Source: Ignavibacteriaceae bacterium
Lineage (GTDB): Bacteria; Bacteroidota; Ignavibacteria; Ignavibacteriales; Ignavibacteriaceae
Assembly: GCA_031292455.1 (NCBI GenBank)
Contig: JARLHC010000165.1
Span: 1-59,173 of the forward strand
Length of the DNA: 59,173 nucleotides
Direction of reading: 5' to 3'
Below, piece by piece: positions 3,675-8,601 of the stretch; the first letter of the stretch is position 1; the number at the start of each line of letters is the position of its first letter. The notes beneath the pieces are model-generated. The model saw only the letters and a program-made list of their open reading frames with translations. It was not told the origin of the DNA and did not search any database. The translations under genes were made by a program, and so were the position numbers.

Positions 3675-4922
3675 ATGAACGATAATAATCTTTCCCGCCG
3701 TAATTTTCTTATTAATCTATCCAGGTATGGAATAATTTTAGGCGGTTCATCGTTAATCCTTTCTAAAGCTTCTGGTATAGAGAACCTCACTAAGTATATA
3801 AATTCAAGAATACTTTATGACTACAAAGATGATCTCTATAAGAATGCTCCGGTTGCAAGGTACTGGACATCAACTATCTTAAAAAAAACTGAGTGCAGTT
3901 CATGCCATTCCTCCGGTGAAATAAATGAAAAATCTCATAATCACAAAGAAAAAACGGTTAAATGTTTACTCTGTGCGCAAGGTTGCCTGATCAAAGAAAA
4001 TGACCGGGGAAAGTGCCGGGGAAGAATAAATCTTAAAGGCGAGCTCCGTTCACTCGTATACGGACGACCTATTGCAATTCACATAGATCCTATTGAAAAA
4101 AAACCCTTTTACCATTTCCTCCCTGGCTCTCAGGCCTATTCTCTTGCAACTGCAGGATGCCCGCTCTCCTGCCTTTTCTGCCAGAATTGGGAAATTTCTC
4201 AATCAAGTCCAGAAGATAATCCGGTTAAATACACTCCACCAATTGATATCGTTAATAATTCTAAACAAAATAATGTTCCGGTTATTGCTTTTACCTACAA
4301 TGAACCTACTACTTTTTTTGAATATATGGTTAACATAGCACAGGAAGCAAAGAAACATAACATCAGATCAGTTCTTGTGAGCTGCGGGTTTATGAATCCT
4401 GAACCACTGAATGAATTATGCTCCGTCCTCGATGCTATCAAAATCGACTTGAAGGGTTATAGTGAATATTTTTACAATAAAGTCTGCAATGCTTCTTTAA
4501 GCCCTGTCCTTCGTACTATTAAACAAATAGCTAAAAGTAAAACACATCTTGAAATAGTCAATCTGGTTGTTCCTACATTGAATGATTCGGATAAAATGAT
4601 GTCGGGACTGGTAGATTGGATCGCGGGTGAAGTTGGTTTTGATGTCCCCGTTCACTTTACACGGTTTCACCCTGACTATAAGTTATTGAACCTCCCCCCG
4701 ACACCAATAGCAACATTAGAACACATTAGAAATTTGGCAATGAGTAAAGGATTACATTATGCGTTTGTAGGAAATGTACCCGGTCATGAAGGAAATAATT
4801 CATACTGCCCGTCTTGCAAAAAAGCTGTAATTAAAAGAAGTAATTTCTTTGTAACTGAAAATAATGTTATCAATGGTAAATGTGCATTCTGTAAAACAAC
4901 AATTGCGGGAGTATGGAAATGA
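3675..4922 (+). CDS. amrS: AmmeMemoRadiSam-type radical SAM enzyme with Tat signal
   Basis: 415 residues from ATG 3675. I chose this start because it begins directly before a Tat signal: SRRNFL at residues 7-12, then a hydrophobic stretch to about residue 30. An upstream in-frame ATG at 3618 would bury the signal. The radical SAM cluster motif is C162-x3-C166-x2-C169 (GCPLSCLFC). Extra cysteines lie before it (C74, C77, and C97, C100, C104, C114 in CLLCAQGC and GKC), and a C-terminal CPSC...CAFC pair looks like a zinc ribbon. The closest family is the radical SAM member of the three-part AmmeMemoRadiSam group, whose chemistry I cannot name. Its stop overlaps the next gene's start (ATGA). An exported, folded Fe-S radical SAM enzyme would be unusual, as SAM and electron donors are cytoplasmic. 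Confidence 0.88.
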   Translation: MNDNNLSRRNFLINLSRYGIILGGSSLILSKASGIENLTKYINSRILYDYKDDLYKNAPVARYWTSTILKKTECSSCHSSGEINEKSHNHKEKTVKCLLCAQGCLIKENDRGKCRGRINLKGELRSLVYGRPIAIHIDPIEKKPFYHFLPGSQAYSLATAGCPLSCLFCQNWEISQSSPEDNPVKYTPPIDIVNNSKQNNVPVIAFTYNEPTTFFEYMVNIAQEAKKHNIRSVLVSCGFMNPEPLNELCSVLDAIKIDLKGYSEYFYNKVCNASLSPVLRTIKQIAKSKTHLEIVNLVVPTLNDSDKMMSGLVDWIAGEVGFDVPVHFTRFHPDYKLLNLPPTPIATLEHIRNLAMSKGLHYAFVGNVPGHEGNNSYCPSCKKAVIKRSNFFVTENNVINGKCAFCKTTIAGVWK

Positions 4923-6451
4923 AACCATTTTCTATTAAGATTTCAATTGTTATCCTTTTATGTGTCTGCTTTTCGAACTGCAAAAGTCAGACGGAAGAAT
5001 CGTTAATAAGGAACCCGGCTGTTGCAGGAAAATTTTACCCTGCTGACTCTTTAAAACTTAGAAATGCACTTAAATATTTTTTCATGGATGCTGTCCCCGG
5101 TGGTAATTCTATCCCTCTGGCAATTATCACCCCTCATGCAGGATATTTGTATTCAGGACAGATTGCTGCGGATGCATTTAATCAGACAAAAAATTTTGAC
5201 TATGACATTATAGTGATTCTTGGAACTAACCACACTACGGCAGGGTTCAATAAAATATCCGTTTACCCGAAAGGCGGTTTCCGTACTCCACTTGGTATAG
5301 CCCATATCGATCAGGAAATCACAGAACAGCTTATTAAAAATGATCCTGACTGCGTCTCCGATATTGGCCCCCATGAATCTGAACATTCTGTTGAGGTAGA
5401 GATTCCATTTATTCAGTACTTATTCCCAAAGGTAAAAATAGTTCCTGTTATAATAGGTACTGATGATCCTGACCTATGTATAAAATTCGGCAAAGCACTT
5501 GCAGGAATATTAAAGGATAAAAAGGCCTTGATCGTCGCAAGTTCTGATCTGTCCCATTATCCCAAATATGAAGATGCTGTGAGCACCGATAAGAGTACTC
5601 TTAATGTTATTAAATCAATGAATACATTAGACATTCGACAAGAATTATACAAAAAATTAAACTCAGGGATCCCATCCTTGGTAACATGTGCCTGCGGCGA
5701 AGGGCCAATATTAACAGTTGTTACTGCAGTTAAAGAGTTAGGAGGAAATAATGTTTCAATAATAAGCTATGCCAATTCAGGAATTACTCTTTTAGGCGAT
5801 AAAGAAAGAGTAGTAGGTTATAGCGCTATTGCCTTTTATAAGACAGATCAGAATATAAAAATCGCTGATAAGTTTATCGAAAATATATCCGATCATCCAG
5901 GTAAAGATTTAGATTCATTGGATAAAGTTTCACTCCTTAAACTTGCACGCAGGTCAATAGAGCAATATCTGGCTTCTGAAACCCTTCCTCTTCCAAGGAA
6001 TTTATCTCCCGGTATGAATTTCAATAGAGGTGCATTTGTGACAATAAAAAAACAAGGAGAACTGCGTGGATGTGTCGGTAGCATGTCAGAATCTCTCCCG
6101 CTTTATGCAGTTGTAGGAAGGATGGCCCTGCAAGCTGCTTTTAATGATAACAGGTTTCATCCTCTTGAGCCCTATGAATTGTCACAGGTTAAGTTTGAAA
6201 TTTCAGTGCTCACTCCCATGATTAAAATTAATAGTATTGATGATATCGTCCTTGGGCGAGATGGTGTTTTATTAAAAAAAGGGAACAAGCAAGCAGTCTT
6301 TTTACCTCAGGTTGCAACAGAACAAAAGTGGAATATGGACCAATTCCTCACTCAGCTTTGCTATAAAGCAGGGCTCAATGCCAATGATTGGAAAACTGCA
6401 ACGCTCTATACATTCAGGGCCGAAGTTTTCAGTGAAGAAGACTTCCAGTAA
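4919..6451 (+). CDS. MEMO1-AMMECR1 fusion lipoprotein (AmmeMemoRadiSam proteins B and A)
   Basis: 510 residues from ATG 4919, which gives an ATGA overlap with the radical SAM gene; ATG 4913 is the alternative. A short lipoprotein signal ends at C21 (CFSNC). Residues about 30-310 form a MEMO1 domain, a relative of LigB-type extradiol dioxygenases: TPHAGY (H73), GTNH (H105), SSDLSHY (H213) and TCACGEG (C257, C259) match the positions of the histidines and cysteine that bind metal in human MEMO1. Residues about 335-510 form an AMMECR1 domain with the hallmark LRGCVGS (382-388). In many genomes these are two separate genes; here they are one membrane-anchored chain. If the signal is real, both domains sit outside the cytoplasm, matching the Tat signal on the preceding enzyme. 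The reaction is unknown to me. Confidence 0.9.
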   Translation: MKPFSIKISIVILLCVCFSNCKSQTEESLIRNPAVAGKFYPADSLKLRNALKYFFMDAVPGGNSIPLAIITPHAGYLYSGQIAADAFNQTKNFDYDIIVILGTNHTTAGFNKISVYPKGGFRTPLGIAHIDQEITEQLIKNDPDCVSDIGPHESEHSVEVEIPFIQYLFPKVKIVPVIIGTDDPDLCIKFGKALAGILKDKKALIVASSDLSHYPKYEDAVSTDKSTLNVIKSMNTLDIRQELYKKLNSGIPSLVTCACGEGPILTVVTAVKELGGNNVSIISYANSGITLLGDKERVVGYSAIAFYKTDQNIKIADKFIENISDHPGKDLDSLDKVSLLKLARRSIEQYLASETLPLPRNLSPGMNFNRGAFVTIKKQGELRGCVGSMSESLPLYAVVGRMALQAAFNDNRFHPLEPYELSQVKFEISVLTPMIKINSIDDIVLGRDGVLLKKGNKQAVFLPQVATEQKWNMDQFLTQLCYKAGLNANDWKTATLYTFRAEVFSEEDFQ

Positions 6452-8601
6452 TGACTTCATTCTCCCAAATGAAAGTTCAGATATTTATCTTTTTAACAGG
6501 CTTTATTTCTATACTGGGACAGATTGTACTCCTTCGCGAACTTAATGTTGCTTTCCGGGGAATCGAACTTGTCTATATTTTAGCGTTTAGTACATGGCTT
6601 ATTGGAACAGCGGTTGGAGTCTCCATAGGTAAACGAAGCTATGTTCCCCCGGAAAGCAGAATAATTATTCTGTTCTTAATAAGCGGGTTACTTTTCCCTC
6701 TGGAACTGTTCATAATCAGAAACCTTCAATTTATCTTTGGAGGGATTACCGGGGCATACCTTCCTTTCGGTAAACAGATCATCTCAATGATTGTCGCGCT
6801 GTTCCCTGTAAGTCTATTGATGGGAATCCTCTTTCAGTGGATTGCTAAAAGGATTGCTTTATTAGGGAAAACATTGGCTGAAGCTTATTCTTTGGAAAGC
6901 TTTGGCGGATTATTAGGAGGTGCAGTATCATCTTTATTAATAATGGCAGGTTTGCAAAATTTTGAAATTATGCTTATTTGCAGCATTGTATGCCTTGCTG
7001 TATTTGCTCTTGAAAATATTCGTTACAGATACACAGTATTTGCAATATTGCTTATACTGGTCATTGGATCTATTCTATGCAGCAGATCAATGGATAATTG
7101 GACGACCTCGGAAGGTTTTGGAAAAACGGTTGAATCTTTAGACACGCCTTATAATAGAATTACAATTGCGTCTTCATATAACCAGCTTTCCCTATTTGAA
7201 GATAATGCACTCTCCTACGAATCTGAAACTTTTGATGCCGAAGAGTTTGTCCAGCTTGCTTCTCTTCAAGCGAAAAATACCGCCAATGTCTTGATATTGG
7301 GTGGGGGATATAAAGGAATAGTCGAACAGCTCAATAAACTCCATCCTTCCAAAATTGATTATGTCGAATACAACAGAAAGATGTATCTGTTTATCAGAGA
7401 TAATTTGCCTGAAAAACTTAGGAACTCTTTAAATTCAGATAAATTAAATATTGTTTTTGAAGATCCTCGATTATATCTTAAACACAATGTTAGTTATGAT
7501 ATTATACTTTCGGGTATGCCTGAACCTTCATCCGGCCAAACCAGCCGCTTTTATACACTGGAATTCTTTAGGGAATTATCATCACGTCTTAATAAAAAGG
7601 GAATCTTTGCTTTTCAATTGCCTTCTTCTGAAAACTTCTGGCCTATTGCTTTGCAGAAAAGAAATGCCAGTATCTATAATTCATTAAAAGCTATATTCAA
7701 TTTTGTCATAGTTCTTCCTGGTACATCTAATATTTTCATAACTTCCAATTCCCCATTAATTCATGACCCTGTGATATTATCAGCAATACTTCAGTCACGA
7801 GGGATTCAGAATAAGTTGGTAACTCCCGAATATGTTAATTACATTTATACTAATGACAGGTTCAATGAAATCTCTTTATTGCTGAACGATACTACCGTAC
7901 AATTAAATAATGATACAAAACCCGTTTGTTATCAGTATACTTTGACTATCTGGCTTTCGAAATTCTTTCCTGGTTTGTCTGGTTGGGATCTTTCTATTAA
8001 AAAGTTAATGGAAACTTTTATGTTCAAAATATCCATGGGATCCATGGGATTCCTGCTATTTGTCATCATACTTGTTGGTAGAATATGGAAATCTTTTAGT
8101 CGTTCTTTAATTGTATTTATATCCGGATTCCAGGGAATGGTCTTAGAAATTATTCTATTGCTCAATTATCAGATGCATAATGGAATTTTATTTCAGAATA
8201 TAGGGTTCCTGATAATGGGATTCATGCTTGGACTTGCATCAGGAGCCTGGCTAATTAATAAATTGATAAAGAAGTATATTGGATTGTTATTAATTACATC
8301 CTCGATAATTATTTTTTTACTAGTTGGAGTATTATTAACTGAAGGATATATAAATGGATTCTTTAGCTCCCTCCTATTCCTTGTGATTTCTGGATTCCTT
8401 ACCTCAGGAATTTTTGCTTATGCTACAAGGTACAGTGTTAAAGATCAGAAAAGGATTATTTCGCCTTTATATTCTGCGGATATTTTGGGTGGAGTCGCTG
8501 GATCTCTACTAGCAAATTTTATTCTTATTCCACTACTTGGATTCGGAATTTCAGCACAGGTAATGGCTTTTCCTTCTCTTCTTCTCTTTTTCTTCTTATA
8601 G
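6451..8601 (+). CDS. Polytopic membrane protein with spermidine-synthase-like methyl/aminopropyltransferase domain
   Basis: 716 residues. The first ~210 hold about six or seven membrane helices, residues ~225-430 a Rossmann domain, and ~505-716 several more helices: the fused MFS/spermidine-synthase layout. SAM-type binding features are LILGGGYKG (281-289), IDYVEYNR (302-309) and EDPRLYL (337-343). At the place where spermidine synthases carry D[ST]SDP, this protein has SGMPEPSSG (354-362), so the catalytic aspartate is not conserved and a putrescine reaction is doubtful. The start codon shares one base with the preceding stop (TAATG), so it is translationally coupled to the MEMO1-AMMECR1 gene and probably belongs to the same system. 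It ends 11 bp from a convergent gene. Confidence 0.82.
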   Translation: MTSFSQMKVQIFIFLTGFISILGQIVLLRELNVAFRGIELVYILAFSTWLIGTAVGVSIGKRSYVPPESRIIILFLISGLLFPLELFIIRNLQFIFGGITGAYLPFGKQIISMIVALFPVSLLMGILFQWIAKRIALLGKTLAEAYSLESFGGLLGGAVSSLLIMAGLQNFEIMLICSIVCLAVFALENIRYRYTVFAILLILVIGSILCSRSMDNWTTSEGFGKTVESLDTPYNRITIASSYNQLSLFEDNALSYESETFDAEEFVQLASLQAKNTANVLILGGGYKGIVEQLNKLHPSKIDYVEYNRKMYLFIRDNLPEKLRNSLNSDKLNIVFEDPRLYLKHNVSYDIILSGMPEPSSGQTSRFYTLEFFRELSSRLNKKGIFAFQLPSSENFWPIALQKRNASIYNSLKAIFNFVIVLPGTSNIFITSNSPLIHDPVILSAILQSRGIQNKLVTPEYVNYIYTNDRFNEISLLLNDTTVQLNNDTKPVCYQYTLTIWLSKFFPGLSGWDLSIKKLMETFMFKISMGSMGFLLFVIILVGRIWKSFSRSLIVFISGFQGMVLEIILLLNYQMHNGILFQNIGFLIMGFMLGLASGAWLINKLIKKYIGLLLITSSIIIFLLVGVLLTEGYINGFFSSLLFLVISGFLTSGIFAYATRYSVKDQKRIISPLYSADILGGVAGSLLANFILIPLLGFGISAQVMAFPSLLLFFFL

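Follow-up and report, generated by a model that had tools for sequence, protein, structure and literature searches.

An AmmeMemoRadiSam operon with export signals, a candidate haem c site and a probable third component of MFS fold

Three overlapping genes in the window, the whole 59,173-nt stretch of DNA analysed here, form an operon that is a variant of the known, biochemically unsolved AmmeMemoRadiSam system. Judging from the sequences, we favour reading it as an extracytoplasmic version of that system, in which the enzymes are exported, a haem serves as electron inlet and the third gene is a component. The three-domain AmmeMemoRadiSam set was already known; what is new is a CxxCH-His insert in the radical SAM enzyme and the MFS fold of the third protein. 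Radical SAM chemistry needs SAM and low-potential electrons, and because of this it is regarded as cytoplasmic. The original prediction had seen a puzzle in supplying both outside the cytoplasm; that puzzle stands, and candidate solutions to it are encoded in the operon.

The three open reading frames lie on the + strand at 3675-4922, 4919-6451 and 6451-8601, joined by an ATGA at 4919-4922 (gene 1/gene 2) and a TAATG at 6449-6453 (gene 2/gene 3). Gene 1 (3675..4922) encodes an AmmeMemoRadiSam-type radical SAM enzyme of 415 aa, predicted to be a Tat-exported form, and belongs to TIGR04337 by its score of 351.7 bits (cut-off 220). Gene 2 (4919..6451) encodes a MEMO1-AMMECR1 fusion of 510 aa with an N-terminal lipoprotein-type signal; it scores 241.5 bits against TIGR04336 (cut-off 26) and 174.4 bits against TIGR04335 (cut-off 99), placing the MEMO and AMMECR1 domains on one gene that overlaps gene 1. 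Gene 3 (6451..8601) encodes a membrane protein of 716 aa with an inserted spermidine-synthase-like domain (PF01564, 53 bits, cut-off 22.9). Both the gene overlaps and these family assignments had been called from the letters alone, and they are borne out by the reading frames and profile scores; the CSSCH with its His in gene 1, a signal-less paralogue elsewhere in the genome and the MFS fold of gene 3 are additions to that prediction. All three AmmeMemoRadiSam domains (TIGR04335, TIGR04336, TIGR04337) are adjacent here, with their cysteines and metal ligands intact. Compared with that system, the window operon adds export signals on both polypeptides, the CxxCH-His insert and a regular MFS/spermidine-synthase-like partner, and the genome also retains a separate, signal-less radical SAM copy. 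In a search of literature outside subscription, AmmeMemoRadiSam appeared in passing only, in five papers, with no study of the exported form, and no periplasmic radical SAM protein was found; nor did we find an established reaction for any AmmeMemoRadiSam member.

The N-terminus of gene 1 carries an exact twin-arginine motif, SRRNFL (residues 7-12; 3693..3710, +). When 12 relatives are aligned, no column ahead of residue 59 is invariant except R8 and R9, which argues that the motif is not there by chance. The conserved S/T-R-R-x-F-L/K motif, a hydrophobic stretch and a TatC gene in the window genome together give the sequence profile of a Tat substrate. Further along, the enzyme has an auxiliary cysteine set (C97, C100, C104 and C114; 3963..4016, +), either a second cluster or a zinc site, that is invariant in 12 exported relatives. 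The radical SAM CX3CX2C motif (C162, C166 and C169; 4158..4181, +; PF04055) and a C-terminal four-cysteine ribbon (C378, C381, C403 and C406; 4806..4892, +) are likewise invariant, and the alignment of exported relatives shows the catalytic residues of gene 1 to be intact. Its core has the fold of the pyruvate formate-lyase activating enzyme, PflA (nearest solved folds 3cb8 and 3c8f), in a structure model whose confidence is low for the Tat signal and for part of the insert. Unlike gene 1, that activating enzyme is cytoplasmic and is without the extra cysteine sets, the Tat signal and the CxxCH. From this fold, and by family knowledge, hydrogen-atom abstraction at the envelope would be expected, the target being a peptide or a small molecule.

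We placed gene 1 among relatives, the majority of them metagenome bins, drawn from a scan of named genomes and from two sweeps, one covering 296 genomes in the window's phylum and the other 345 in the phylum to which a Smithella-like host belongs. The closest named relative in that scan is an Ignavibacteriales bin, 84% identical. N-terminal forms (signal-less, Tat-signal and Sec/TM-anchored, assigned by eye) were mapped on a tree built from 111 radical SAM cores; they need 6 changes, compared with 49 in shuffles. The window falls inside an all-Tat clade of 24 rows (SH-aLRT 99) with members from the window's phylum and from deltaproteobacterial and Krumholzibacteriia bins, and the RR pair is retained in all 24. 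Relatives lacking the signals, which the original prediction had named as evidence against its proposal, turned out to be a distinct signal-less paralogue, not the orthologue. The window genome itself (3.36 Mb, 171 contigs) encodes such a protein on another contig (TIGR04337, 497 bits and so higher-scoring than gene 1, no export signal), with no MEMO or AMMECR1 gene near it, and a second family-type copy is present in 16 of 17 host genomes checked, the exception being a 1.8 Mb bin. The stand-alone, signal-less TIGR04337 protein at G000:C10:108850-109857 (L001/L003; 494-497 bits) is flanked by pyruvate-kinase-like and short-chain dehydrogenase-like genes.

Several other arrangements were seen in passing. 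A sister form in Omnitrophota, Verrucomicrobia, Lentisphaerae and Kiritimatiellae (L026-L046, L081 and L083) has a plain N-terminal TM anchor of ambiguous orientation and no RR, and its third gene is often convergent. At least 8 genomes carry tandem pairs of Tat-signal radical SAM genes, overlapping or close (L193, L194, L195 and L196 in Desulfobacterota), and three of the four pairs inspected adjoin aminotransferase-like and ligase-like genes. At two loci (L015:7056-8636 and L082:7117-8916) it is the MEMO N-terminus that has a twin-arginine-like stretch, together with ARFYR, a motif otherwise typical of radical SAM proteins in this family, and the adjacent radical SAM gene is without any signal.

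The third gene travels with the exported enzyme. It is present in all 20 Tat-clade loci long enough to judge, the other four being cut by contig ends. Across the 296 genomes of the window's phylum, a full-length third gene (at least 526 bits; next best 186) occurs in seven, and all seven copies have as neighbours a radical SAM gene of Tat type and a gene for an exported MEMO-AMMECR1 protein. KR stands in place of RR at three of these seven loci, and likewise in G097, whose radical SAM gene is truncated where its contig ends. Ten genomes of the same family have the signal-less enzyme only, with no full-length third gene, which gives the operon a patchy distribution. For named-genome loci flanked by at least 2.5 kb on each side, the third gene accompanies 25 of 34 signal-bearing enzymes and none of the 22 signal-less ones (Fisher p 1e-8, ignoring kinship), an association that comes down to few independent evolutionary changes in an independent-pairs test on the phylogeny. 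Its position varies: on the same strand it may follow, precede or lie between the other two, and in Omnitrophota and Verrucomicrobia it is convergent. Around Tat-clade loci no further gene recurs beyond the three, a dedicated cytochrome included; multihaem cytochromes lie nearby in a few only. We rejected a chance neighbour on the strength of the co-occurrence with the exported enzyme. The earlier proposal that the third gene is a true component has held up, given the clade and phylum counts, the varying gene orders and its absence from signal-less loci, and we regard this with high confidence as the correct reading.

What might the third protein do? Its structure model (pLDDT 86.7, pTM 0.87) matches MFS carriers along the whole chain, among them SV2A (Z 27.1 over 332 residues) and PfHT1 (Z 21.5), so that it shares with SV2A and other MFS carriers a fold that extends over its full length. 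Its membrane halves are homologous to each other (hhalign 96%, E 5e-9), giving the duplicated six-helix halves of an MFS fold, and each half holds one of two conserved acids, E149 and D677, within an equivalent Y-x2-[ED]-x2-G motif. The inserted SAM-binding-type domain (7093..8019, +) resembles spermidine synthases (1uir, Z 30.1). Lysine and arginine are three times as dense in the inside loops as in the outside ones (0.185 versus 0.061), with the inside higher in 27 of 27 sequences, so the positive-inside rule, taken with the structure model, predicts that the domain is periplasmic. In its SAM site GxGxxG is retained, no sequence departs from G289 or D338, and E306 is found in 23 of 27 sequences. 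Two acids are missing from all 27: that of GxG(D/E)G, where F, I, M, P, Y or L stands instead, and the leading Asp of DxxDP, which we take to be an aminopropyltransferase active-site residue. The GxG(D/E)G rule comes from work on NHMT, a fungal seven-TM methyltransferase of the LPMO N-terminal histidine (PMC10349129). From these features we would put a role in SAM handling, as carrier or handler of SAM-like cationic molecules, at slightly short of an even chance; that the protein is specifically a SAM exporter is a more tentative idea.

NHMT offers the nearest biochemical parallel to a membrane protein of the spermidine-synthase-like kind (PMC10349129), and it raises the possibility that gene 3 is not a SAM supplier at all and is instead a membrane SAM-dependent methyltransferase acting on an envelope substrate. 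The fungal protein, seven TM helices plus a spermidine-synthase-like domain, has experimental support as a methyltransferase, and like gene 3 in all 27 sequences it has lost the acid for spermidine synthesis (PMC10349129). However, its seven helices are described as unlike known membrane folds (PMC10349129) and its domain is not inserted between duplicated halves, whereas the whole-length MFS match and the duplicated halves of gene 3 point to a transporter. A methyltransferase on this side of the membrane would also require periplasmic SAM. We consider this alternative a minority view, about as tentative as SAM export itself.

The electron supply may be addressed by the insert between the Tat signal and the core of gene 1. 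In the window it contains CSSCH (residues 74-78; 3894..3908, +), a candidate c-type haem attachment site, and His90 (3942..3944, +), a candidate distal ligand 7 residues upstream of the first auxiliary cysteine. The general pattern is C-x2-C-H-x(11-13, once 16)-H, with the last His 7 (once 8) residues ahead of that cysteine. It occurs in 16 of the 24 Tat-clade members, across phyla, and in 0 of 87 radical SAM family members outside the clade. One further member (L061) has a degenerate motif, YLKCH...H, with the His retained, and seven Smithella-like members have lost the whole insert; the distal His is accordingly found in 17 of 17 sequences with the insert and 0 of 7 without. One subclade lacks the insert and L061 has a damaged one, yet both retain the Tat signal and the operon, so the insert is dispensable in some members. 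Genes for cytochrome c maturation, either CcmF-type or ResB together with CcsA-type, are present in 16 of 16 hosts whose enzyme has the CxxCH and in four of the seven whose enzyme lost the insert, with three of seven lacking them, counts drawn from bins that may be incomplete and hosts that are not phylogenetically independent. The window genome encodes CcmE and CcmF (at L154). The CxxCH therefore lies in a predicted exported segment of a protein whose host has cytochrome c maturation, as a haem c site would.

These patterns lead us to prefer a c-type haem site, and with it a built-in electron inlet, as the best reading of CxxCH-x(11-16)-H. Haem attachment usually takes place on unfolded protein and Tat translocates folded protein, which counts against a haem. 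It may be that the pathway is exported and the motif is a structural zinc site, with a separate periplasmic donor docking to give electrons. CxxC plus a His, CxxCH-x12-H included, is also a common zinc motif; a profile search of the insert gave no confident cytochrome family (Cytochrome_C7 at E 0.48 and MtrC/MtrF at E 0.005, one member each); and the clade members without the insert retain everything else. Against zinc, all 16 motifs have a His immediately following the second Cys, which is what defines haem c sites but not zinc sites, and the motif is seen solely in exported enzymes whose hosts have genes for cytochrome c maturation. We judge the zinc site unlikely, at perhaps one chance in a handful, and continue with the haem site.

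Gene 2 bears on the compartment in which these proteins work. Its signal peptide (4919..4981, +) has a lipobox-like Cys21 (CVCFSNC|K), and the Asn at its -1 position is unusual. At the same site relatives show GSC, SSC, NSC, AAC or VAC, or they have plain Sec signals, and export-type N-termini, often with a lipobox, were present in the exported-clade relatives inspected. The domains of gene 2 are homologous to human MEMO1 (7kq8) and an AMMECR1-like protein (1vaj); they are fused and predicted to be exported, whereas human MEMO1 is intracellular. The counterparts of the MEMO1 iron/copper ligands H49, H81 and C244 (PMC11081632) are invariant in 23 exported fusions, as is the AMMECR1 RGC motif, so the exported pathway looks active rather than decayed. 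At one locus (L020:8513-9187) an extra, separate AMMECR1-domain gene directly follows the fusion.

The Tat motif, exact here and with its RR pair kept throughout the clade, and the lipoprotein signal, present as a lipobox-like sequence with its odd Asn, had both been picked out in the original prediction, together with a pathway at the envelope; the RR pair, the gene 2 signals, the invariant active-site residues and TatC all agree with that location. We hold with good confidence that the radical SAM enzyme and the fusion would be exported to the periplasmic side. The N-termini could instead be non-functional for export and act as membrane tethers, leaving the catalytic domains in the cytoplasm: there is no clear Tat cleavage site, and the Omnitrophota/Verrucomicrobia sister group relies on a simple TM helix at the N-terminus whose orientation is uncertain. 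The invariance of RR, exported MEMO proteins within the same operons, the restriction of CxxCH to Tat forms and the predicted periplasmic topology of gene 3 speak against tethering, which we find improbable. That gene 3 is a polyamine aminopropyltransferase, here by chance of neighbourhood and outside the pathway, is suggested by name-level matches and is very hard to sustain, since the window protein falls below every NCBIfam aminopropyltransferase cut-off (82.7 versus 472, 66.7 versus 260 and 51.9 versus 249.55) and co-occurs strictly with the exported enzyme. We rejected polyamine synthesis on these unmet cut-offs and on the two missing polyamine-site acids; with both lost, gene 3 should not make polyamines and is probably no aminopropyltransferase. 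The NF037959 model, ‘fused MFS/spermidine synthase’, names the same domain combination, and gene 3 is under its cut-off as well (17.8 bits versus 40).

Our preferred, exported reading can be set out as a mechanism. Tat would carry the folded radical SAM enzyme to act on the periplasmic face, and the MEMO1-AMMECR1 fusion would reach the same compartment as a lipoprotein or Sec-signal protein. After export, haem may be attached at the CxxCH beside the Tat signal, with the His about 12 residues on as second ligand, seven before the auxiliary Fe-S/Zn cysteines; electrons would then come from periplasmic cytochromes or the quinol pool, replacing cytoplasmic flavodoxin or ferredoxin. The third protein is pictured as an MFS-type carrier of 14 helices, the central two of which are separated by a spermidine-synthase-like domain on the periplasmic side; it might supply, hold or recycle SAM or its cleavage products outside. 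PflA-type 5'-deoxyadenosyl radical chemistry on an envelope substrate would be coupled to the MEMO1 metal site and the conserved Cys of AMMECR1. We know of no bacterium in which periplasmic SAM has been established. A fully self-contained extracytoplasmic radical SAM system, with a covalent haem c inlet and a dedicated MFS-type carrier moving SAM across the inner membrane to the periplasm, is a speculative version that we put forward with corresponding caution.

Human members of the MEMO1 and AMMECR1 families are linked to disease, and the operon offers new handles on their pathway: a compartment, a redox partner and a third component. A conserved, multi-phylum operon that joins an enzyme with an export signal and a candidate haem site to a transporter-like protein with a SAM-binding-type domain makes the problem of location directly testable.
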